A DNA stretch of 64,000 nucleotides, from assembly GCA_020431405.1 (NCBI GenBank), contig JAGQIK010000115.1, forward strand, positions 1 to 64,000. The letters are read 5' to 3'. This stretch comes from Myxococcales bacterium. GTDB lineage: Bacteria > Myxococcota_A > Polyangia > GCA-2747355. Numbering within the stretch: the stretch's first letter is position 1; each line of letters opens with the position of its first letter. The position numbers and the translations under genes are program-made. The notes under the pieces were generated by a model that was not told where the DNA came from, searched no databases, and was given only the letters and a program-made list of their open reading frames with translations. This document shows, one piece after another, positions 1 to 32,533 of the stretch.

Positions 1-346
1 CGGCGGCGGCGCGCGCGCGGCGCACCCGCGCGAGGCCGCGTCGGGCATCAGGTGAGCCGCCCGACAGCTTGGCGGCGCGCCGGTAGTGGCGCTCGGCGTC
101 GTCGAGCTCGCCGGCGCGCAGGTAGTGCCAGGCCAGCGAGAGCTGCAGCATGTAGTCCTGCGGATAGCGCGGCTCGATGGCGGCGAGGGCAGCGGCGGCT
201 GCGGCGCTGTCGCCGCCCTTGGCGAGCTTGGTGGCGCGCCGCAGCGCGAGGTCGTAAGCATCTACCGTCTCGGCGCGCGCGCTGGATGCCGCCAGCAGCG
301 CGACGATCGCGACGAGAAGGGCCTTGTGAGGGGTTTTGCGCGGCAT
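1..346 (-). CDS. TPR-like exported protein (3' end cut by window edge)
   Basis: The first 115 residues of a protein whose C-terminus lies outside the window. The start at 346 is preceded by GGAG six bases upstream. Residues 1-21 are a signal peptide (basic start, then LLVAIVALLAASS, cleavage near ARA-ET). The mature part shows helical-repeat spacing: AYDLALRRATKLAKGGD, then LQLSLAWHYLRAGELDDAERHYRRAAKL, typical of tetratricopeptide repeats. It is probably periplasmic, perhaps a protein-interaction scaffold. The control region upstream (347-434) carries a GTAAG-N6-GTAAA repeat like those in front of the CpxP/CpxR-like genes next door, so it may belong to the same stress regulon. The specific function is unknown. 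Confidence 0.75.
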   Translation of the reverse strand, partial: MPRKTPHKALLVAIVALLAASSARAETVDAYDLALRRATKLAKGGDSAAAAAALAAIEPRYPQDYMLQLSLAWHYLRAGELDDAERHYRRAAKLSGGSPDARRGLARVRRARAAA

Positions 347-411
347 CGCCAGCTCCGGTCAGGGGATGCTGTAGGTGTGACCGGGCTCTGTTAGGGCGAT
401 GCCCGCGCTTT

Positions 412-427
412 GTAAGCGGACGGTAAA
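412..427 (+). promoter_or_regulatory. CpxR-like direct-repeat box 1
   Basis: GTAAG at 412-416 and GTAAA at 423-427, 11 bp start to start, about 65 bp upstream of the TPR gene at 346. It shares TGTAAGCG and the repeat spacing with two boxes in the cpxP/cpxR-like control region. E. coli CpxR binds GTAAA-N5-GTAAA, so the site fits an OmpR-family direct repeat one base wider. Binding is inferred. Confidence 0.5.
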
Positions 428-434
428 GGTCCCG

Positions 435-881
435 CTAGGGGTGCGGCTTGCGAGGCGGGCGGCGCGCCGCGAGGGCCTTGAGCTGGGAGGCGCTGAGCAT
501 GGTGTGAAACTGCAGGCGCGCGTTGACCATCGCCTGCACGCGCTGATTCTCGAGCTGTGCGAGCTGTGCGGCGTAGACGCGCGCGGCGTTGGCGTCGGCC
601 GGGTAGAGCGTGAAGGCCTTGTCGAGGCCGCGGCGCGCGCGCTCGAAGCGTTTGCGCAGCGCCTGCATGCGTGCCCGCTCGCGCGTATCGAGCGTGCGCA
701 GCTGCGAGATCTGCGCGCTGGTGAGGCCGAGGCCGCGCGCCAGCACGGCGTCGCGCCAGATGCCCCAGGGCGGTGGTGGTGGGTGCGGCGGGCGCGCGGG
801 TTGCGCCGCAGCGGGGGGTGTCGGCAGCGCCAACAGCGCGAGCAGCAGGGCGAAGGGCAGAGATCGTCTTCTAAGCATCAT
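435..881 (-). CDS. CpxP/Spy-like periplasmic protein
   Basis: A 148-residue exported protein beginning with two consecutive Met codons after a GGAGG eight bases upstream. Residues 1-27 form a signal peptide ending in PPAAAQ. The mature protein is Pro-rich, then helical and basic, with the Spy/CpxP signature LTxxQ (LTSAQ) near residue 52 and a second, degenerate copy (LSASQ) near the C-terminus. In the CpxP family these motifs sit in a cradle-shaped dimer that binds misfolded envelope proteins and damps the cognate kinase. It is divergent from an OmpR-type regulator and a CpxA-like kinase, the same logic as cpxP-cpxRA in enterobacteria. Sequence identity is low, so a metal-resistance CnrX/ZraP-type role is an alternative. 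Confidence 0.75.
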   Translation of the reverse strand: MMLRRRSLPFALLLALLALPTPPAAAQPARPPHPPPPPWGIWRDAVLARGLGLTSAQISQLRTLDTRERARMQALRKRFERARRGLDKAFTLYPADANAARVYAAQLAQLENQRVQAMVNARLQFHTMLSASQLKALAARRPPRKPHP

Positions 882-924
882 CACGATACCTCCATCGGTG
901 ATGCGAAGAAGGTAGCGACGCGCT

Positions 925-941
925 GTAAGCGCCCTGCTAAG
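925..941 (+). promoter_or_regulatory. CpxR-like direct-repeat box 2
   Basis: GTAAG at 925-929 followed 11 bp later by GCTAA at 936-940, in the divergent region between the CpxP-like gene (start 881) and the response regulator (start 1017). Same TGTAAGCG core as boxes 1 and 3. It sits 33 bp, three helical turns, before box 3. Confidence 0.5.
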
Positions 942-957
942 GCTCGACGCGTGTTTT

Positions 958-973
958 GTAAGCGCCGTGTAAA
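958..973 (+). promoter_or_regulatory. CpxR-like direct-repeat box 3
   Basis: GTAAG at 958-962 and GTAAA at 969-973, 11 bp start to start, about 44 bp upstream of the GTG start of the response regulator. With box 2 it could serve both divergent promoters and autoregulate the system. This is pattern-based; binding is not shown. Confidence 0.5.
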
Positions 974-1016
974 TGTCGATCGTCGTGCGCTGCGGGCCAC
1001 TATTATCTAGAGGCAG

Positions 1017-1730
1017 GTGAGCTCGCAGAACATCCCCATCCTCGTTGTCGACGACGATCCAAAGCTGTGCCGGCTGCTCGCGGAGTACCTCGCACCCTTT
1101 GGCTACGCCGTCGAGGTAGCGCACGACGGCGCCGAAGGCTTGCGTCGCGCGCAGCAGGGGCGTTTCGCCGCGGTGATCCTCGACGTGATGATGCCGGTGA
1201 TGGATGGCACCGAGATGCTGCGCCAGCTGCGTCAGACCTCGGACGTGCCGGTGCTGATGCTCACGGCCCGCGCCGAGGAGACCGACCGCATCGTCGGGCT
1301 CGAGCTCGGCGCCGACGACTACCTGCCCAAGACCTTCTCGCATCGCGAGCTGCTGGCGCGCCTGCGCGCGGTGACGCGGCGCAGTCGGCAGCGACCGGCG
1401 GCGCGGCCGTCGATCCCCGAGCTGCCGTTGATCCTCGGCGAGCTAGCCATCGATCTGGCAGCCCACGAGGTGAGCCTCGCTGGCGAGCCGCTCGAGCTGA
1501 CGCCGGTGGAGTACGAGATCTTGTCCTGCCTGGCGCGCGCGACGGGACGCGTACAGTCGCGCGATCGACTGCTGCAGAAGGTCGCTGGACGTGACTACGA
1601 GTCTTTCGATCGCTCGGTGGACGTTCATATCTCGTCGCTGCGGCGCAAGCTGGGCGACGACCCGAAGCGGCCGCGCTTCATCAAGACCGTACGCTCGGCG
1701 GGCTACATGTTTCTCAAGCAAGGCGACTGA
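1017..1730 (+). CDS. OmpR/PhoB-type response regulator, CpxR-like
   Basis: A 237-residue regulator with a GTG start. The receiver domain (about 6-120) has acidic DDD near 12-14, phosphoacceptor Asp56 in LDVMMPVMDG, MLTAR and Lys105. The C-terminal winged helix (about 135-235) has SVDVHISSLRRKLGDDP and the YMF end typical of OmpR-family DNA binders. The stretch VLMLTARAEETDR-VGLELGADDYLPK closely resembles CpxR. One oddity: the Pro normally after the conserved receiver Lys is Thr106 (KTF instead of KPF). It lies nine bases before its kinase and divergent from a CpxP-like gene, so it probably controls envelope stress through the GTAAG repeats upstream. Confidence 0.88.
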   Translation: MSSQNIPILVVDDDPKLCRLLAEYLAPFGYAVEVAHDGAEGLRRAQQGRFAAVILDVMMPVMDGTEMLRQLRQTSDVPVLMLTARAEETDRIVGLELGADDYLPKTFSHRELLARLRAVTRRSRQRPAARPSIPELPLILGELAIDLAAHEVSLAGEPLELTPVEYEILSCLARATGRVQSRDRLLQKVAGRDYESFDRSVDVHISSLRRKLGDDPKRPRFIKTVRSAGYMFLKQGD

Positions 1731-1739
1731 GGCCTCGCG

Positions 1740-3266
1740 ATGTGGCGCCGACTGCCGCTCTTCGCGCGCATCTTGGTGTTCTTCTTCGCCAACCTGATCG
1801 TGGTGGGGCTGGTGGTGTTGGGCGCGCTGCGGCTGCGTTTCGCGCTGGGCCCCGATCCGATGGTCTCGCTGGCGCACCAGCTGGCGTTCGAGCTGGAGAG
1901 CGTCTCGCCAACCCGCTGGGACGCCGCGCTGGCCAAGCGCTCGCGCGTGGCCGGCGTGACGCTGCACCTCTACACGCCCCACGGCGAGCGCTTGGCCGGG
2001 CCGAAGATCGCGTTGCCCGAGCGCGTGCGCGCGCGGCTCGCCGGCCCGCGGCCCGCGGTAGGCCCGCCTGGCAAGCTTCCCGCGGCAGGCCCGCCTGGCA
2101 AGCGGCCACCGCCGCCGTGGGCCAAGGGCAAACATCCGCCGCCCAAGGGACCGCCGCTGCTGCCACCGCCGCCGCCGCTGGGGCCCGGTGCGGGCGCTGG
2201 TCAGCTGTTCTCGGTGCGAAGCGCGTCACCCACACGATATTGGGTCGGCGTGCCCGTGGTGCTGCATCCGACCGGTCAGGGGCCGCCCCGTGCGCCGGCC
2301 GTGGTGTTGGCCTCGTCGAGCTCGATCACCGGCGGCGGGTTGTTCTTCGATCCGTGGCCTTGGGTGCTCGTGGTGGCAATGATCGTCGCGCTGTCGACGC
2401 TGCTGTGGCTGCCGCTGGTGCGCAGCGTGACGCGACCGCTGCGGCGCATGACCGAGGTCACCGAGCAGATCGCCGCCGGCAAGTTCGACGCGCGGCTCGA
2501 CGAGCGGCGCGGCGACGAGATCGGACGGCTGTCGCGCGCGATCAACGAGATGTCGCAGCGTCTGGCGGGCCTCGTGGGCAGCCAGCGTCGCCTCATCGGC
2601 GACGTGGCGCACGAGCTCGGCTCGCCCATCGCGCGCATCGAGGTCGGCCTCGCCGTGCTCGGCCAGCGTCTCGAGCAGACACGCCAGGCGGCGCCCGGCG
2701 AAGCTGACGAGGACGACCGCGCGCGCGTCGAGGACCTCGCCGCCGACGTGAGCCACATGTCGCAGCTGGTCGAGGAGCTGCTCGCGTTCGCGCGCGCCGA
2801 GCTCGAGCCGTCGCGTGTCTCGCTCGAGCAGACGACCCTCGCCGAGCTGGTGCAGCGCGTGGTGGCGCGCGAGCAGCGCGGCCGCTGCGAGATCGAGGTC
2901 GACATCGACGCGTCGATCGAGATCATCGCCGACCCGCGGCTCGTCGCTCGTGCGGTGGGCAACCTGGTGCGCAACGCCGTGCGCTACGCGGGCGACGAAG
3001 GCGCCATCGAGGTCGCGGCGGAGCGCGCCGGCGAGCGCGTGCGGCTCGAGGTGCGCGATCGTGGGGCTGGTGTGCCGGAGGCGCACCTGGCCGATCTGTT
3101 CGAGCCGTTCTATCGCGTCGACGACGCGCGCAGCTCGCACAGCGGCGGCACCGGCCTGGGGCTGGCGATCGTCAAGCGCTGCGTGGAGGCCTGCGGCGGC
3201 AGCGTGGTGGCGCGCAACCGCGAGGGCGGCGGGTTGGTGGTGCAGCTCGAGCTCGACGGCTGCTAG
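1740..3266 (+). CDS. CpxA-like sensor histidine kinase
   Basis: A 508-residue inner-membrane kinase. A first membrane helix (about 10-35) is followed by a periplasmic sensor with a long Pro/Gly/Lys-rich stretch (about 104-153) holding an in-frame duplication of GPPGK. A second helix near 208-230 leads to HAMP, then the HisKA box with phosphoacceptor His291 in DVAHELGSP, the N box (NLVRNAVRYA), G1 (DRGAG) and G2 (GGTGLGLAIV). The H box has GSP where CpxA-type kinases usually have RTP. It follows the response regulator by nine bases, so the two are surely one operon and a cognate pair. Its stop codon overlaps the stop of the opposite gene in a shared CTAG. Confidence 0.88.
   Translation: MWRRLPLFARILVFFFANLIVVGLVVLGALRLRFALGPDPMVSLAHQLAFELESVSPTRWDAALAKRSRVAGVTLHLYTPHGERLAGPKIALPERVRARLAGPRPAVGPPGKLPAAGPPGKRPPPPWAKGKHPPPKGPPLLPPPPPLGPGAGAGQLFSVRSASPTRYWVGVPVVLHPTGQGPPRAPAVVLASSSSITGGGLFFDPWPWVLVVAMIVALSTLLWLPLVRSVTRPLRRMTEVTEQIAAGKFDARLDERRGDEIGRLSRAINEMSQRLAGLVGSQRRLIGDVAHELGSPIARIEVGLAVLGQRLEQTRQAAPGEADEDDRARVEDLAADVSHMSQLVEELLAFARAELEPSRVSLEQTTLAELVQRVVAREQRGRCEIEVDIDASIEIIADPRLVARAVGNLVRNAVRYAGDEGAIEVAAERAGERVRLEVRDRGAGVPEAHLADLFEPFYRVDDARSSHSGGTGLGLAIVKRCVEACGGSVVARNREGGGLVVQLELDGC
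2052..2102 (+). repeat. In-frame 27-bp tandem duplication in kinase sensor region
   Basis: A 24-bp core at 2052-2075 is repeated at 2079-2102 with one base changed, 27 bp start to start. It encodes two successive nine-residue units, PAVGPPGKL and PAAGPPGKR, in the periplasmic part of the CpxA-like kinase. Confidence 0.8.
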
Positions 3267-24899: not shown

Positions 24900-25984
24900 T
24901 GACTGTCCGGGTTCTGGTCGTCGACGACAGCGCGGTGATCCGCCGCATGCTGTCCAAGGCGCTCGCGACGGCGCCGGGCATCGAGGTCGTCGGCACGGCG
25001 CCCGACCCGTTTGTCGCTCGCGACAAGCTCGTGCGGCTCAAGCCTGACGTGATGACCCTCGACATCGAGATGCCGCGCATGGATGGCATCTCCTTTCTGC
25101 GGCGCGTGATGGCCTTCAGCCCGATGCCGGTGCTGATCCTGTCGTCGCTGACGCCGGCGGGAAGTGACCTGGCGCTCGAGGCGCTGCAGGCGGGCGCGCT
25201 CGAGGTGATCAGCAAGCCCAACGCGGCCTACAGTCTTGGCGAGGTGACGGCCGACCTGATCGAGAAGGTGCGAGCGGCGGCGGGAGCGCGCGTCGACCAT
25301 CTCGTCAAGAAGGCCAAGTCGCAGGTCACGACAGTGAAGGCCCCGCTGGCGATGACCGCGACGACCAATCAGATCGTCGCCATCGGCGCGTCTACCGGCG
25401 GCACCCGCGCACTGGAAGAGATCCTGCCGCTGCTCCCGCCCACCGCGCCAGGCACGCTCGTCGTGCAGCATATGCCTGAAGGCTTCACCCGATCGTTCGC
25501 AGAGCGCCTGGACAGCATCAGCCGCGTGCGGGTCAAAGAAGCCGAGACCGGTGACCGTGTCGTGCCCGGGACGGTGCTCATCGCGCCCGGCAACTTCCAC
25601 ATGCGGCTGCGCCGCACCGGCGCCGCCTACCACGTGGTGGTGGACCAGCAGGAGCGCGTCAACCGCCACCGGCCCTCGGTGGACGCACTGTTTCACTCCG
25701 TGGCGCAGTACGGCGGTCGCAACGCCGTGGGCGTGATCCTCACCGGCATGGGAGCCGACGGCGCCGAAGGCCTGCTCGCCATGCGCAACGCGGGTGCGCG
25801 CACCATCGGTCAGGACGAGGCGTCCTGCATCGTCTACGGCATGCCGCAGGCGGCCGCGCGCCTTGGCGGGGTAGAGCACGTCGTCTCGCTGTCCGACGTG
25901 GCGCGGGCCATCGTCGAGCAGGCCGAGCGCGGCCCAGGCGCCGGCACGGCCGCGCCGGGCGCCAAGGAAAGGGCGAGCGCCTGA
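24899..25984 (+). CDS. cheB: CheB methylesterase
   Basis: A 361-residue protein-glutamate methylesterase/deamidase. The receiver domain has phosphoacceptor Asp55 in LDIEMPRMDGISFL and Lys in VISKPN. A linker (about 115-155) joins it to the CheB_methylest domain with catalytic Ser165 (GASTGGT), His191 (QHMPEGF) and Asp287 (GMGADGAEG). Phosphorylation by CheA should activate removal of receptor methyl groups. Start overlaps cheR stop by one base and its stop overlaps the next start (TGATG), so translation is coupled through three genes. Confidence 0.95.
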   Translation: MTVRVLVVDDSAVIRRMLSKALATAPGIEVVGTAPDPFVARDKLVRLKPDVMTLDIEMPRMDGISFLRRVMAFSPMPVLILSSLTPAGSDLALEALQAGALEVISKPNAAYSLGEVTADLIEKVRAAAGARVDHLVKKAKSQVTTVKAPLAMTATTNQIVAIGASTGGTRALEEILPLLPPTAPGTLVVQHMPEGFTRSFAERLDSISRVRVKEAETGDRVVPGTVLIAPGNFHMRLRRTGAAYHVVVDQQERVNRHRPSVDALFHSVAQYGGRNAVGVILTGMGADGAEGLLAMRNAGARTIGQDEASCIVYGMPQAAARLGGVEHVVSLSDVARAIVEQAERGPGAGTAAPGAKERASA

Positions 25985-27150
25985 TGCACGCCCTGGTAGT
26001 CGACGATGACCCCACCACGCGCACGCAGCTGCGCGCGCTGCTCGGCAGCTGGGGATACGACGTGCTCGAGGCCGGCGACGCCGCGCAGGCCGAGAGCGCG
26101 CTCGCGCGGCGCGATGCGCCGCTGCTGATGATCGTCGACTGGGTGATGCCCGAGACCAATGGCGTCGAGCTGCTGCGTAGGGCGCGCTCGCTGCCGGAGG
26201 CCTCGCCACTGTACGTGATCATGGTCAGCGGCAAGCACGAGAGCGCGGCGGCGGCCTATGCGCTGGAGTCCGGCGCCGACGACTTTGTCAGCAAGCCGCT
26301 CGATCCCGTGGCGCTGCGCGCGCGTGTCGGTGTGGGGGCGCGCATGCTCGCCAAGTCGGAAGCGCTGCAGCGATACGCCGAGGAGATGTCGCGGCTCGCC
26401 GAGGCGCGCGCCGCCGAGATTCTGCACGCCGACCGGCTCGCCACCCTGGGGCAGCTCGCTGCCGGTGTCGCGCACGAGATCAACAACCCGACGACGTTTA
26501 TCGCCGGCAACGCTGAGCTGCTCGAGCGCGTCTGGCCCGACCTCGAGCGCGCGCTGGCGCAGGCCGGCGACGCGCGCTTGGTGGCGATCAGCGCCGAGGT
26601 CCCTGCGATGCTCGCCGCCGTTCGCGGCGGCGCGGAGCGCGTGCGCCGCATCGTGGCCGACCTCAAGTCCTACGCGCGCAAGGGCAGCAGCGATCCGAGG
26701 GAACGCGAGCTGGCCAACGTCAACGAATCCGTCGAGCGCGCGGCGCGTCTGCTCGGCTCGCGATTCAAGCACGACGTGCGTCTCGAGCTCGATTTAGGCG
26801 ACATCTCGGCCTGCCGTATCGATCCGCCGACGTTCGAGCAGGCGCTGGTGAACCTGCTCAACAACGCCTGTGACGCCGTGCAGGGCGTCGCGGGCGCGAC
26901 GGTGGCCGTTCGCAGCAGGCAGCGCGATGACGGCATTGAAGTGGTGGTCGAGGACAACGGAGCGGGCATTCCAGACGCGGTGATGCGCGAGATCTGGAAC
27001 CCGTTCTTCACGACGAAGCCGCCGGGCAAGGGCACGGGCCTGGGTCTTTGCATCAGCCAGCGCATCATCGCCGAGCACGGCGGCGCGCTGCGCGCGAGCA
27101 ATCGGCGCGAGGGTGGCGCCCGCTTCGTCATTTCGGGGGTGGGGTCATGA
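25984..27150 (+). CDS. REC-histidine kinase (receiver at N-terminus)
   Basis: A 388-residue soluble hybrid with reversed order. The receiver (1-120) has Asp52 in IVDWVMPETNG and Lys in FVSKPLDP. A coiled-coil helix leads to HisKA with His164 in LGQLAAGVAHEINNPTTFI, then HATPase with NLLNNACDAV, EDNGAGIP, FFTTKPPGKGTGLGL. The catalytic part resembles NtrB/HupT-like soluble kinases. It lies inside the che operon between cheB and a REC gene (ATGA overlap), so CheA probably phosphorylates its receiver and thereby gates a second phosphorelay. That connection is inference. Confidence 0.9.
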   Translation: MHALVVDDDPTTRTQLRALLGSWGYDVLEAGDAAQAESALARRDAPLLMIVDWVMPETNGVELLRRARSLPEASPLYVIMVSGKHESAAAAYALESGADDFVSKPLDPVALRARVGVGARMLAKSEALQRYAEEMSRLAEARAAEILHADRLATLGQLAAGVAHEINNPTTFIAGNAELLERVWPDLERALAQAGDARLVAISAEVPAMLAAVRGGAERVRRIVADLKSYARKGSSDPRERELANVNESVERAARLLGSRFKHDVRLELDLGDISACRIDPPTFEQALVNLLNNACDAVQGVAGATVAVRSRQRDDGIEVVVEDNGAGIPDAVMREIWNPFFTTKPPGKGTGLGLCISQRIIAEHGGALRASNRREGGARFVISGVGS

Positions 27151-27590
27151 CAGCGCACAGCGCGACGATCCTCGTCGTAGACGACGAGGTCGAGATCCAG
27201 CAGCTGCTGCGGCGGCATTTCACGTTCGCGGGTCACGTCGTGCACCTAGCGGGCAACGGCATGGAGGCGCTCGAGCTGCTCGGCCGCCATCGTGTCGACG
27301 TGGTGGTCAGCGACATCGTGATGCCCGAGATGGGTGGCGTGGAGCTGCTCGAGCACATGCGAGCAGCACACCCGCTGGTGCGCGCTGTGATGATGACGGG
27401 CTACGTGACGCAGCAGAACATCCTCGCCTGCATGCGGCTTGGGGCCGACAGCTGCGTCTTCAAGCCCTTCGAGACGCTCGACAAGCTCGACGAGGCGCTC
27501 GACCGCTCGTTGCGCATGATCGCGCACTGGCTCGAAGTGCTGCGCCAGCGAACCAACATCCCTGCCCTCGATACAAAGGCGGTGGGCTGA
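27147..27590 (+). CDS. Single-domain response regulator (REC)
   Basis: A 147-residue receiver with a short C-terminal tail. Key residues are DDE at the N-terminus, phosphoacceptor Asp in VVVSDIVMPEMGG, Thr in MMTGYV and Lys in CVFKPFE. The tail (about 120-147) is helical and basic with no known output. The ATG overlaps the stop of the REC-kinase. It is likely the partner of that kinase or of CheA2, which starts two bases later. Confidence 0.9.
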   Translation: MTAHSATILVVDDEVEIQQLLRRHFTFAGHVVHLAGNGMEALELLGRHRVDVVVSDIVMPEMGGVELLEHMRAAHPLVRAVMMTGYVTQQNILACMRLGADSCVFKPFETLDKLDEALDRSLRMIAHWLEVLRQRTNIPALDTKAVG

Positions 27591-27592
27591 CT

Positions 27593-29785
27593 ATGAGCAC
27601 GCTGGGCGCTATCGATCGCGAGATCCTCGAGGCCTTCATCGACGAGTCGCAGGAGGACCTTTCTGCCTGCGGGCCGCTGTTGGTGACGCTCGAGGAGCGT
27701 GCAGATCGCGGCGCCATCGACCGCATCTTTCGCGCCTATCACAGCATCAAGGGCAACGCGTCGTTCTTCGGGCTGATGGTGCTCAGTCACCTCGCGCACA
27801 AGCTCGAGGATGTGCTCGACCTGGCACGCCAAGGGCAGCTTTCGCCCGACGGCGCTGTGGTGGACGTGCTGCTGCGCGGAAACGACGTGCTCGAGCTTTT
27901 GCTCGCGCGCGCGCGCGCCGGGGCCGAGCCGGACGACGAGCTGGTCGGTCGTGCGCGGGAGCTCGAGCAAGAGCTCGCTGGCGTGGTCGTGCGCGCGGCA
28001 CCCGACGAGGGGCAGCGTTGGGCGCGTGTCTTCGAAGCGCTCGCGGCCGTCGAGCAGTGCGCTGGCGGTGGCGACGGGGGCGGCGCCGCGCTGGCCGAGC
28101 GCGTGGCGCAGCTTCGCGGGCACATCGATGCGGTTTGCCCCGACAACATGCGGCCCGAAGCCAGCGAAGAGGAGCGCTTCGCGTTCGCCATCGAGGCGGT
28201 ACGCGCGCTGATCGAGCGCGGCCCGTCGGTCGACGCGCGCGAGCTGCAGGCAGCGGTGGAGCAGCTGGCCAAGGTCGGCCCCGAGGCGAGCCGAGAGCTG
28301 GCGGCGCGCGCGGCCGCCGAGGTGATCTCCATCGTCTCGCAGGTCGGGGTCGATACGATGCTGATCGAGTCGCTGGCGGGGCAGCTCGATGCGATCGAGT
28401 CCGCGTCAACCGCTGTGGCCCCCGCCGATACGCGCTCTGCCGATCTGGCGACGGACGAGGCTCGGGCGCCACGCCGCGAGGCGCGCGCCGCCAGCGGCGA
28501 GACGGACGCGGCCGCTGCGGGCGACGGCGGCGGCGACAACCGCACCATGCGCGTTCAGGAGGCGCGCGTCGACGAGTTCCTGGCCTTCGTCGGCGAGCTG
28601 ATCGTCGTGCGCGAGATGTTCCGCAACCTGGGCAAGAAGCTGCGGACCAAGAAGGTCGGTCGGCTGCAGCGCGAGTTTCAGTGGTCGATGGACGCCTTCG
28701 AGACGCTCTCGCACTCGCTGCAGCACAGCATCATGGAGGTGCGTAAGGTCTCGGTGCGCACGCTGCTGTCCAAGTCGCCGCGCATCATTCGCGACGTGGC
28801 GCGCGTGGCCGGCAAGGAGGTGCGGGTAGAGACGTCGGGCGATGACCTGCGCATCGACAAGAGCCTCGTCGAGCTGCTCGAGGCGCCGCTGGTGCATCTG
28901 GCGCGCAACGCCGCCGACCACGGCATCGAGTCGCCGGGGCAGCGCGAGGCGAGCGGCAAGCCGGCGGCGGGCATGGTGGCGCTGTCGATCTGCGAGACGT
29001 CCGACAGCATCGTGGTCGAGGTGCGCGATGACGGCGCCGGCATCGACTGCGAGCGCGTGCGCGCCAAGGCCGTCGCGCGCGGCATCGTCGACGCGGAGAC
29101 GGCGGCACGGCTGAGCCACGCCGAGACCTACGCGTTGCTGATGCGACCCGGCTTCAGCACCGCCGAGAAGGTCACCGACGTCTCGGGCCGGGGTGTGGGC
29201 ATGGACGTGGTGCGCAGCGAGGTGGAGCGTATCGGCGGGCGCATCGAGATCGCCAGCCAGCTCGGCGCCGGGACGACGTTCACGCTCTCGATCCCCAAGA
29301 GCGTCAGCGTGCAGATCGTCGACGGCTTCGTGGTGCGCGTCGGAGAGGCGCGCTACGTGCTGCCGCTGCTCTCGGTGCGCGAGTCTTTCCGCCCACGCTG
29401 CGAAGACATCCAGACCACCCTGGGCGGGCGCAAGCGCTGCGTCGCGCGCCGTGGTCAGGTCATCGAGCTCTTCAGCGTCGCGCAGGTGCTGTCGAGGCGC
29501 GCCGAGCACGAGATCTCCCCCGAGGCGATCGTCGTGACGGTCGAGGTGCGCCCGGGAGGCGGCGTGGTCGGCCTGCTGGTCGACGAGGTGGTCGGTGTAC
29601 AGCAAGTGGTCGTGCGCGACATCGGCGGCCTCGAGGAGTTCGAGACGCCGTTCGCCGGGGGCGCCGTGCTCGGCGACGGGGGGATCGCGATGGTGGTCGA
29701 GCTCGACGGCATGCGCGAGCACATCCGCGCCACGTCGTGGCCGCCACTGCCGACCGCGACCGCAACGTGCATGGGAGGGGCGTGA
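27593..29785 (+). CDS. cheA: Chemotaxis-type histidine kinase CheA (second copy)
   Basis: A 730-residue kinase distinct from the first CheA. The HPt domain is at the very N-terminus with His in AYHSIKGNASFFGL (about residue 48). A long Ala/Glu-rich helical region (about 110-310) replaces a classic P2. Dimerisation and HATPase follow with RMVxL-equivalent IMEVRKVSVRTLL, LVHLARNAADHGIESP, RDDGAGID and DVSGRGVGMDVVR, then a CheW-like domain (RRGQVIELFSVAQVL). It ends in a short Pro/Thr/Ala tail. It sits after a REC gene and its stop overlaps the CheD-REC start. Two CheA proteins in one operon imply two phosphate inputs into the same REC pool. Confidence 0.92.
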   Translation: MSTLGAIDREILEAFIDESQEDLSACGPLLVTLEERADRGAIDRIFRAYHSIKGNASFFGLMVLSHLAHKLEDVLDLARQGQLSPDGAVVDVLLRGNDVLELLLARARAGAEPDDELVGRARELEQELAGVVVRAAPDEGQRWARVFEALAAVEQCAGGGDGGGAALAERVAQLRGHIDAVCPDNMRPEASEEERFAFAIEAVRALIERGPSVDARELQAAVEQLAKVGPEASRELAARAAAEVISIVSQVGVDTMLIESLAGQLDAIESASTAVAPADTRSADLATDEARAPRREARAASGETDAAAAGDGGGDNRTMRVQEARVDEFLAFVGELIVVREMFRNLGKKLRTKKVGRLQREFQWSMDAFETLSHSLQHSIMEVRKVSVRTLLSKSPRIIRDVARVAGKEVRVETSGDDLRIDKSLVELLEAPLVHLARNAADHGIESPGQREASGKPAAGMVALSICETSDSIVVEVRDDGAGIDCERVRAKAVARGIVDAETAARLSHAETYALLMRPGFSTAEKVTDVSGRGVGMDVVRSEVERIGGRIEIASQLGAGTTFTLSIPKSVSVQIVDGFVVRVGEARYVLPLLSVRESFRPRCEDIQTTLGGRKRCVARRGQVIELFSVAQVLSRRAEHEISPEAIVVTVEVRPGGGVVGLLVDEVVGVQQVVVRDIGGLEEFETPFAGGAVLGDGGIAMVVELDGMREHIRATSWPPLPTATATCMGGA

Positions 29786-30693
29786 TGGAAAAGAGAGCGT
29801 TTCTACTTCCTGGCGACATGGTGACCACCGCGCACCCTATGCAGCTGGCGACGTTGCTCGGGTCGTGCGTCTCGGTCTGTCTCTACAACCTGCAGCGCGA
29901 TCTCGCCGCGATGAATCACTTCATGCTGCCGCTGGCCGAGGGCAACCCCGATGTCGGTCGCTTCGGCGACACGTCCACCGAGAAGATCATCGTCACGCTG
30001 CTCGCCCGCGACGGCAACCCGGACCACTACCAGGCCAAGGTCTTTGGCGGTGGCCACGTCGTGGGCGCCATCGGCGGCACGATGCGCATCGGCGAGCGCA
30101 ATATCGCTGCCGCGCGCTCGATTCTGGGGCGCTACCGCATCCGTGTGGTCGACGAGGACGTGGGCGGCAAGCACGGGCGGCGTGTGGCGTTCGATACGGG
30201 CGCGCGCGAGACGGTTTGCGCTCCGATCCCGTCGTCGGCGATGGGCAGCGCCTGCGCTCGACCGGGGAAAACACGCGTGCTGATCGTCGACGACTCGGAG
30301 ACGGTGAGGCGCCTCCTGCGACACGCGCTCACCGACGTGGAGGGGTTCGAGGTCGCCGGCGAAGCGCGCGACGCTTTCGAGGCGCGCGAGAAGATCCTGA
30401 GCCTCGAGCCGGACATGCTCACGCTCGACATCGAGATGCCCAAGCTCGACGGGCTCTCATTTCTGCAACGCCTGACGCAGTACCTGCCGACAAGGGTGGT
30501 GGTGATCTCGTCGAAGGCTCGTTCCGACTCGCCGATCCCGGCGCGCGCACGCCAGCTCGGCGCCGCAGACGTGATCGACAAGGCTGACCTCGAGCTTTTT
30601 AAGGGGGTGGACAGGTTGCGTGCCTCGCTGTTGCCGCGATTAACGGCAGCGGCGCGCACGGCGGCGCCGGTGCGCAGCTTCTCTGGAGGATGA
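29785..30693 (+). CDS. CheD-receiver fusion protein
   Basis: A 302-residue fusion. Residues 1-150 are CheD, a receptor glutamine deamidase: LATLLGSCVSVCLYN with catalytic Cys28, AAMNHFMLPL with His45 and Thr23, then KVFGGGHVVGAIGGTMRIGERN. Residues about 162-285 are a receiver most like the CheB receiver (LTLDIEMPKLDGLSFLQRLT, Asp215; VVISSKA; VIDKAD), but no methylesterase domain follows. In other bacteria CheD is free and partners CheC/CheX. Here deamidation could be gated directly by phosphorylation from CheA. GGGAGGGG precedes the ATG, which overlaps the cheA2 stop; the end overlaps the next gene region. Confidence 0.85.
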   Translation: MEKRAFLLPGDMVTTAHPMQLATLLGSCVSVCLYNLQRDLAAMNHFMLPLAEGNPDVGRFGDTSTEKIIVTLLARDGNPDHYQAKVFGGGHVVGAIGGTMRIGERNIAAARSILGRYRIRVVDEDVGGKHGRRVAFDTGARETVCAPIPSSAMGSACARPGKTRVLIVDDSETVRRLLRHALTDVEGFEVAGEARDAFEAREKILSLEPDMLTLDIEMPKLDGLSFLQRLTQYLPTRVVVISSKARSDSPIPARARQLGAADVIDKADLELFKGVDRLRASLLPRLTAAARTAAPVRSFSGG

Positions 30694-30695
30694 CC

Positions 30696-31094
30696 ATGAA
30701 GATCCTGCTCGTCGACGACGACCCCGTTAGCCTCGAGAGGCTGCGCGCGTTGATGCGGCCCTACGGCAGCTGTAGCGCTGCCAAGTGCGTCGAGTGCGCC
30801 GTCGACGCATTCACCGCGGCGCTCGAGGATGGCGAGGCGTTCGACCTGGTGAGCCTCGACCTGACGTTGCCCGACGGGCGCGGTGACGAGGCCATCGAGC
30901 GGCTGCGCGCTCTCGAGCGGCGCTACGGCCTGCACCCTTCGGACGGGGCGCGGGTGGTGGTGGTCACGGGCAGCAGCCAGGCGCGCGACGTGATGCGCAG
31001 CTTCCGCGGCGGTGCGTCGGGGTATCTGGTCAAGCCGGTCACGTCGGACAAGCTCGCCGAGGTAATGCAGGCGATCGAGCGCGACGCTGCTTAA
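30696..31094 (+). CDS. Single-domain response regulator (REC)
   Basis: A 132-residue receiver: LLVDDDP at the start, phosphoacceptor Asp in LVSLDLTLPDGRG, VVVTGSS and Lys in YLVKPV. I chose ATG 30696 because GGAGG at 30685-30689 is six bases before it; the ATG at 30690 touches that site. Single-domain form, so it could be a phosphate sink or a CheY-like effector. It is followed 68 bases later by a CheX-like phosphatase gene, which is a natural partner for dephosphorylation. Confidence 0.88.
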   Translation: MKILLVDDDPVSLERLRALMRPYGSCSAAKCVECAVDAFTAALEDGEAFDLVSLDLTLPDGRGDEAIERLRALERRYGLHPSDGARVVVVTGSSQARDVMRSFRGGASGYLVKPVTSDKLAEVMQAIERDAA

Positions 31095-31162
31095 TCGAGC
31101 CGGCGATCCGCCGAATGGAACAGTGGGGCGCCTGCGAGCGCCTCGCAGGACAAGGACGACCC

Positions 31163-31663
31163 ATGGATGCTATCGACCCGGCCGCGAGACACTGGCTAGA
31201 TGCCGCCGTTAGCGGCTTCGACGAGCTGGCGGTGAGCATGCTCGAGGCGAACGGGGTGGAAAAGGGGGAGGACACGGAGGCGCTTTCCAACGACCAGTGC
31301 GGCGCGGTGATCGCGCTCGTGCCGGAGCAAGGCGATTCCATCGAGCTCGGTCTGTTTTCCAACCGCGAGGGCGTCACGCGCCTGTCGCGCGCGTTGCTCG
31401 GCATGGAGGAGGGGGACGAGCTGTCGGAGGACGAAGTCGCCGACTGCGTGGGAGAGCTGATCAACATCGTCGCGGGCAACGCCAAGGGCGCCAACGGAAA
31501 CAGCACGTACAGGCTCGGCATGCCGGTCTACGTCGCGGGTCCGCTGCGCCCTGGCAGCCGCGCCAAGTTCTCCGGCTGCGGCGTGCGCATGGACGACATC
31601 GAGGTGACGTTGTGCGTGCTCAGCCCGTCGTTCGCCTCCACAAAACCACGCCAGGACAGATAG
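31163..31663 (+). CDS. cheX: CheX-type phosphatase
   Basis: A 166-residue protein of the CheC/CheX/FliY family. The signature ExxN is present in CVGELINIVAGNAKG, where CheX uses Glu and Asn to help hydrolyse the aspartyl phosphate of CheY. Also typical are CGAVIALVPEQ, IELGLFSN and the MPVYVAGP strand. I chose ATG 31163 (after AAGGACG) over 31115. As a phosphatase it would end signals from the REC proteins in the operon. It stops 15 bases before the next gene. Confidence 0.82.
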   Translation: MDAIDPAARHWLDAAVSGFDELAVSMLEANGVEKGEDTEALSNDQCGAVIALVPEQGDSIELGLFSNREGVTRLSRALLGMEEGDELSEDEVADCVGELINIVAGNAKGANGNSTYRLGMPVYVAGPLRPGSRAKFSGCGVRMDDIEVTLCVLSPSFASTKPRQDR

Positions 31664-31678
31664 CGCAGGAGTGATGCG

Positions 31679-32533
31679 ATGAGAGTGCTGATCGTCGATG
31701 ACAGTAAAGCGATGCGCATGATCGTCAAAAGGACGCTGCGGTCGGCCGGTTTTACCGGGCTCGACGTTTCCGAGGCTGGCGACGGCGCGGAGGCTTTGAG
31801 CGCGATCCAGAAGAGCCCACCCGATGTGGTGCTGACCGACTGGAACATGCCCAACCTCAACGGCATCGAGCTGGTGCGCAAGCTCAAGGAGCAGAACTCG
31901 CCGGTGACCATCGGCGTCGTGACGAGCGAGTCATCCGCGGAGATGCGCGACGAGGCCGTCGCCGCGGGCGCGGCGTTCTTCATCACCAAGCCCTTCACCG
32001 CAGAGACCTTCGGCCAGGCCCTCGACGGGCTGCTTGGCCAGGCTGGCGCAGGCAGCAGCGATGGCGCGACCACGCAGGCGCAATCTGCGGTGCCCGACGT
32101 GAGCGGCCTGCGCACTGCGCTCGCCAGGCTGGTGCCGCGCAACGTCGACGTGGCGCAGGCCAAGAGCAAGGCGAGCGAGAAGGGCACGGTGGTGGCGCGC
32201 TATCACGACGCGGACGGCGCGCTGGGGGCGGTGGCCTTTGCCGACCTGAGCTCTACGGCCTGCTTCGGCGCGGCGCTGACGCTGATCCCTGCCGGCGCGG
32301 TCAAGGACGCGGTGCGCGGCGGTGAGCTGCCGCAGAACATGCGCGACAACGCCAACGAGGTCTTCAACGTCATCGGCAGCCTGATGAGCGGCGTGAAGCT
32401 CGCGGAGGTGATCTTCGAGGGCGGCGACGTGCAGGGCGACGTGAAGGGCAAGATCTCGAGCGCTGCGCATCGTCTAGACGTGCAGGTGGAGATCACTGGC
32501 TATCCGCCCGGCACCCTCTCGATCGTGCGCTGA
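31679..32533 (+). CDS. Receiver-CheX fusion
   Basis: A 284-residue protein. Residues 1-120 form a CheY-like receiver (VDDSKAMR, phosphoacceptor Asp in LTDWNMPNLNG, VVTSESS, Lys in FFITKPF). A short Ala/Gly/Thr linker leads to a CheX/CheC-like domain (about 150-284) with NANEVFNVIGSLM, an ExxN-type phosphatase motif, and a final HRLDVQVEITGYPPGTLSIV strand. The fusion puts a phosphatase and its substrate-like receiver in one chain, so it may regulate itself or other receivers. GCAGGAG precedes the ATG. It is the last gene of the operon; a hairpin lies about 100 bases further on. Confidence 0.82.
   Translation: MRVLIVDDSKAMRMIVKRTLRSAGFTGLDVSEAGDGAEALSAIQKSPPDVVLTDWNMPNLNGIELVRKLKEQNSPVTIGVVTSESSAEMRDEAVAAGAAFFITKPFTAETFGQALDGLLGQAGAGSSDGATTQAQSAVPDVSGLRTALARLVPRNVDVAQAKSKASEKGTVVARYHDADGALGAVAFADLSSTACFGAALTLIPAGAVKDAVRGGELPQNMRDNANEVFNVIGSLMSGVKLAEVIFEGGDVQGDVKGKISSAAHRLDVQVEITGYPPGTLSIVR

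Follow-up and report, generated by a model that had tools for sequence, protein, structure and literature searches.

In Escherichia coli, the LTXXQ-family gene cpxP is divergent from the genes of the response regulator CpxR and of the kinase CpxA, and the gap that they share holds one box, a direct repeat of GTAAA half-sites with a 10-bp spacing (GTAAAACAACGTAAA). Tandem half-sites 11 bp apart are found in operators of the WalR/PhoB type, as in the WalR consensus TGTWAH-N5-TGTWAH. Within the OmpR-type family, activator sites usually replace the -35 element or lie just upstream of it. The mutation-tested site of CpxR in mexA of Pseudomonas aeruginosa, GTAAACCTAATGTAAA, is an 11-bp repeat as well (PMC5063474). 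There, the gene of a small periplasmic LTXXQ protein adjoins cpxR, and efflux pumps at distant loci are also controlled (mexA, muxA and cpxP promoters; PMC5063474).

The window analysed here is a stretch of 64 kb, beginning with the first base of contig C587, in a GC-rich genome of 11.2 Mb. Its first genes, and the elements that lie between them, are as follows:

2..346, minus strand: TPR-repeat protein with an N-terminal hydrophobic segment (Pfam TPR_16, 37.4 bits)
411..429, plus strand: box 1, TGTAAGCGGACGGTAAAGG, an 11-bp direct repeat, flanked by the stop codon of the LTXXQ gene and the start codon of the TPR gene
435..881, minus strand: secreted LTXXQ/Metal_resist protein of 148 aa (CpxP/ZraP/CnrX-like; Pfam)
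909..914, minus strand: TACCTT, the predicted -10 element for the LTXXQ gene, at 11 bp from box 2
924..942, plus strand: box 2 (distal), TGTAAGCGCCCTGCTAAGG, in the divergent gap, with a strong left and a degenerate right half-site
957..975, plus strand: box 3 (proximal), TGTAAGCGCCGTGTAAATG, an 11-bp direct repeat in the divergent gap
1001..1006, plus strand: TATTAT, the predicted -10 element for the regulator-kinase operon, at +43 relative to the GT of box 3
1017..1730, plus strand: OmpR-family response regulator with a GTG start (Pfam Response_reg and Trans_reg_C; tree)
1740..3266, plus strand: membrane sensor histidine kinase (HAMP, HisKA, HATPase_c; Pfam) with a proline-rich sensor region

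The TPR gene, truncated by the contig end, and the LTXXQ gene are read leftward, the regulator and kinase genes rightward, and the divergent gap measures 135 bp. An earlier note on this DNA had called the genes CpxP-like and CpxRA-like. The layout, in which the LTXXQ gene diverges from the genes of an OmpR-family regulator and its kinase, is indeed Cpx-like. The LTXXQ protein exceeds the Pfam cut-offs of both PF07813 (LTXXQ; 35.3 bits for a cut-off of 24.3) and Metal_resist (34.0 bits for 29.2); its N-terminus is hydrophobic and signal-like, and its gene has a GGAGG ribosome-binding site at 889-893. The regulator joins a receiver domain (PF00072, 102 bits) to a winged-helix Trans_reg_C domain (PF00486, 94 bits), which assigns it to the OmpR/PhoB family. 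In the sensor region of the kinase, a proline-rich insert at 2040-2190 of the window contains a near-perfect repeat (GPPGKLPAAGPPGK). Elsewhere in the window, at least six receiver-domain stretches are clustered on the plus strand at 24908-32008, with an internal TAA in the stretch at 30699-31121.

The likeness to E. coli extends to the shared gap, which holds a GTAAA direct-repeat box of the same polarity, and to the recognition helix of the regulator, RSVDVHISSLRRKL, which is close to the RAIDMHISNLRRKL of CpxR. Unlike the single 10-bp box of E. coli, the window has three boxes, two of them separated by 33 bp, and the spacing is 11 bp. The earlier note was thus correct in giving a spacing one base wider than that of the E. 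coli cpxP/cpxR box, a width that is not unique since it recurs in P. aeruginosa mexA.

All copies of the motif TGTAAGCG in the window are at 411, 924 and 957. Three copies compare with 0.78 expected, and 6 of 100 shuffles reach that count. The positions given previously, 412, 925 and 958, are those of the GTAA, one base inside boxes that begin at 411, 924 and 957; the sites themselves are real. A second half-site at 11 bp is present as claimed in boxes 1 and 3, where GTAA follows GTAA at that distance, but not in box 2, where CTAA follows at 12 bp and the 11-bp register is matched only by the degenerate half TGCTAAGG. The 33 bp between boxes 2 and 3 and the placement of the boxes, the first before the TPR gene and the other two between the LTXXQ gene and the regulator-kinase pair, were as reported. 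Longer patterns are far rarer: GTAAGCG-N3..5-STAA is seen three times in the window for 0.01 expected and GTAA-N7-GTAA twice for 0.05 expected, and the two matches of TGTAAGN6GTAA in the 11.2-Mb genome are both at boxes of the present locus. The genome search proposed earlier, TGTAAGCG-N3-GTAA, returns no match genome-wide because the pattern is one base too short, the correct gap being N4. These patterns were all picked after the sequence had been inspected, so that a matrix trained on other phyla was taken as the independent test.

When the regulator was used as a protein query, 56 close relatives were retrieved (L033-L088; 52-66% identity), most of them from Verrucomicrobiota and the others from Desulfobacterota and Acidobacteriota. 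The matrix was built from 46 of their proximal sites, none of them from the window. Among the 127,958 positions of the window, it ranks box 3 first (19.2) and box 1 second (17.1), and the next-best position scores 4.9. A proximal box is found upstream of the regulator orthologues in 47 of 55 loci, the window included, almost always with an 11-bp spacing and in one orientation; by phylum, it is present in 4/4 loci of Thermodesulfobacteriota, 6/6 of Acidobacteriota and 34/40 of Verrucomicrobiota/PVC. Its consensus is approximately AAATTGTWAAG-N4-KGTAAA, from an alignment that presupposed the 11-bp spacing; two pair counts are unbiased on this point. When GTAA/CTAA pairs with spacings of 7-15 were counted on both strands upstream of the regulators, exact GTAA-N7-GTAA stood at 11 bp and on the regulator's strand in 18 of 18 loci (window included), other spacings being nearly absent. 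The best GTAAA pair in a relaxed count (spacings 8-14) was at 11 bp on the plus strand in about 46 of 55 loci, and coding sequences, used as a control of this count, showed no spacing preference. The same box, at the same place and beside the same regulator in distant bacteria, strongly suggests that the boxes are landing sites of this regulator. The open literature, a scope that took in few subscription papers, yielded nothing relevant on this regulator clade or on CpxR-type sites in Verrucomicrobia or Acidobacteria.

The distal site calls for separate treatment. Counting the window, 26 of 47 loci have a GTNA half-site 32-33 bp further upstream than the proximal box, and with the stricter GT[AT]A[AG], 22 of the 34 occurrences over 92 offsets fall at -32/-33. 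In loci outside the window (for example L051, L049 and L069), the distal box has its own asymmetric consensus, GTWAAG-N5-RTGTG, and does not consist of two equal halves. Box 2 shares the position and the left half without the RTGTG-type right half. It is weak against both the proximal and the distal matrices and ranks 547th with the latter, so that the arguments for it are the left half-site and the 33-bp position. On these grounds, box 2 is a probable operator.

The regulator was placed in a tree with its 56 relatives, six E. coli paralogues and regulators from the same bacterial class. The window regulator and the relatives form one clade (support 99/90), which is sister to the E. coli CpxR clade (93/88) and not within it; the deep order is less sure, with long branches. 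Besides E. coli CpxR, the CpxR clade contains a gammaproteobacterial relative and two regulators of the window's class. The 11-bp tandem half-sites recall WalR/PhoB-type operators, but the window regulator groups with CpxR and not with E. coli PhoB (WalR was outside the tree). The box is absent upstream of 15 other same-class regulators, about 52-55% identical and of a different clade (best same-class score 4.2), and upstream of the three best CpxR-like paralogues of the genome itself. The box thus follows the clade. Same-class CpxR-clade regulators (L132, L136, L157-L166) resemble the window in having GTAAA-type tandem boxes upstream, but with a 10-bp spacing: such boxes were seen in eight distinct loci and not in several others. 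With 11 bp here and 10 bp both in those loci and in E. coli, operator spacing appears to separate the two sister clades. The 11-bp site of P. aeruginosa CpxR, a protein that was outside the tree, is a caveat to this conclusion. In four of the same-class loci (L157, L158, L159 and L161), two oppositely oriented 10-bp boxes lie about 34 bp apart upstream of the regulator, a layout unlike that of the window.

These comparisons bear on whether the boxes are operators at all, and of which protein. That they are chance repeats in GC-rich intergenic DNA is extremely unlikely. Such a reading can point to patterns picked by eye and to the shuffles in which TGTAAGCG alone reaches three copies, but it is countered by the genome-wide rarity of the boxes, by their ranking with an independent matrix and by position, strand and spacing that are conserved across phyla. 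The coherent operator set put forward in the earlier note is supported; for boxes 1 and 3, a chance origin is refuted as far as sequence can refute it, and both are very probably real operators. An assignment of the boxes to a different regulator encoded in the genome, one that would control the present two-component system as well, is also improbable. Many OmpR-family regulators are encoded in this genome; however, the box tracks the orthologues of the adjacent regulator through several phyla, is missing upstream of paralogues, and no further genomic site stands out. The adjacent regulator is the likely binder.

Taking the model as a whole, we consider it highly probable that the adjacent OmpR-family regulator (1017-1730) uses the boxes as its operators in a compact, local, autoregulated circuit. 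The kinase would phosphorylate the regulator, which may then occupy, as a head-to-tail dimer, TGTAA half-sites that are separated by one turn of DNA (11 bp). Promoter elements can be deduced from their positions. In the orthologous loci, the TAnnnT motifs read in the direction of the divergent gene are commonest at a distance of 11 bp from the distal half-site, the modal position that the predicted -10 of the LTXXQ gene also occupies. Those on the regulator's strand peak between +43 and +45, counted from the proximal box (17 of 32 occurrences over 57 offsets), and the TATTAT of the window falls within this peak. A scan found no consensus sigma-70 promoter. Autoregulation would come from box 3, which would be placed immediately before the -35 region of the regulator-kinase operon. 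Box 2, three turns upstream and 11 bp from the -10 of the LTXXQ gene, could stand in for a -35 element and drive expression of the secreted protein. Both placements suggest activation rather than repression. It should be noted that the predicted regulator promoter leaves a leader of only a few bases, and that an almost leaderless mRNA is odd and counts against the model. Box 1 perhaps places the TPR gene, which follows the LTXXQ gene, under the same control; it has no convincing -10 at the expected distance and no counterpart in most relatives. Additional boxes of the same type were observed in some relatives (L044, +2730 and +4418 from the regulator start; L056, +2346; L047, +2116; L072, -958). 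They precede genes for ECF-sigma-like, EF-hand-like, YHYH-like and other secreted proteins, several of these assignments having been made by eye, and like boxes 1 and 2 they are on the strand opposite to that of their presumed target.

The wider Cpx-like regulon suggested in the earlier note did not find support. With at most one mismatch, the genome contains seven matches elsewhere, compared with five for a reversed-pattern control; the search covered an assembly that is about 96% complete, and weaker sites of the box 2 kind escape at this stringency. Two of the best-scoring one-mismatch loci, inspected individually (L116 and L121), have no envelope genes of the relevant type alongside, and a scan of the four other LTXXQ loci of the genome revealed a convincing box in none. 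At one-mismatch stringency, control thus appears to be local. Upstream of another LTXXQ-family locus of the same genome (L149, around position 2162), there is a palindromic GGTAACAGTCTGTTAACC-type site with a score of 9.3. It probably belongs to another factor and may be its operator.

How far the system can be called Cpx, and what it senses, are related questions. A true CpxRA-CpxP envelope-stress system, with the regulator as CpxR orthologue and the LTXXQ protein as CpxP, the inhibitor of the kinase, would account for the E. coli-like divergent layout, for the identical box polarity and for the position of the regulator in the sister clade of CpxR. It would also fit the kinase, for which CpxA models give the best NCBIfam scores, yet these are far below the cut-off. 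However, the regulator reaches only 196 bits with the CpxR model NF008199 (cut-off 341), models of OmpR, RpaB and MtrA scoring higher; CpxA_peri has no match in the kinase, whereas E. coli CpxA, used as a control, gives 44 bits; the regulator clade is separate, the spacing is 11 bp instead of 10 bp and, unlike in E. coli, no wider regulon was detected. Several of the features that define Cpx are therefore lacking, and we hold a true Cpx system to be unlikely. The description of the pair as CpxRA-like is supported for the regulator, by its sister clade; the kinase has no recognisable CpxA periplasmic domain. The system is Cpx-like by its layout and operator logic and is not Cpx in the strict sense; it is a local variant of the known Cpx circuit and not a new kind of system.

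The LTXXQ protein raises the possibility that the operator logic is the same but that metal is sensed, as with ZraP or CnrX, and not misfolded protein, the targets being secreted metal-binding proteins. Its model is a helical hairpin whose closest solved folds are the metal sensors CnrX and ZraP, and not CpxP; this match is weak, with E-values that are not significant, and the sequence compared with solved structures gave no relevant match. Its score above the Metal_resist cut-off points in the same direction. So do the divergent genes of the relatives: in 32 scanned, some of them selected by a crude signal-peptide rule, they encode EF-hand proteins in ten cases, LTXXQ proteins in five and YHYH proteins in five. 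Against this, the EF-hand and YHYH genes belong to other phyla, and neither a metal-binding motif nor a metal transporter could be identified next to the genes of the locus. A metal signal is therefore a tentative proposal, though one to be kept in view, and the outcome of the circuit preferred here would be a compact, locally autoregulated response to envelope or metal stress.

Beyond this locus, a CpxR-sister lineage spread over several phyla may combine an 11-bp operator, a two-box layout at 32-33 bp with the asymmetric distal GTWAAG-N5-RTGTG, and secreted LTXXQ, EF-hand or YHYH targets. In our judgement, the arguments are evenly balanced as to whether this combination forms an exchangeable module distinct from Cpx. 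If it does, a change of one base in operator spacing would set the lineage apart from its 10-bp sister clade. The present locus makes a regulator and its operator predictable from sequence in groups on which there is little regulatory work: Verrucomicrobiota, Acidobacteriota and Desulfobacterota, together with a GC-rich bacterium of large genome. Sister clades with similar recognition helices also offer a natural comparison of 10-bp and 11-bp operators, by which the basis of the choice of spacing may be tested.
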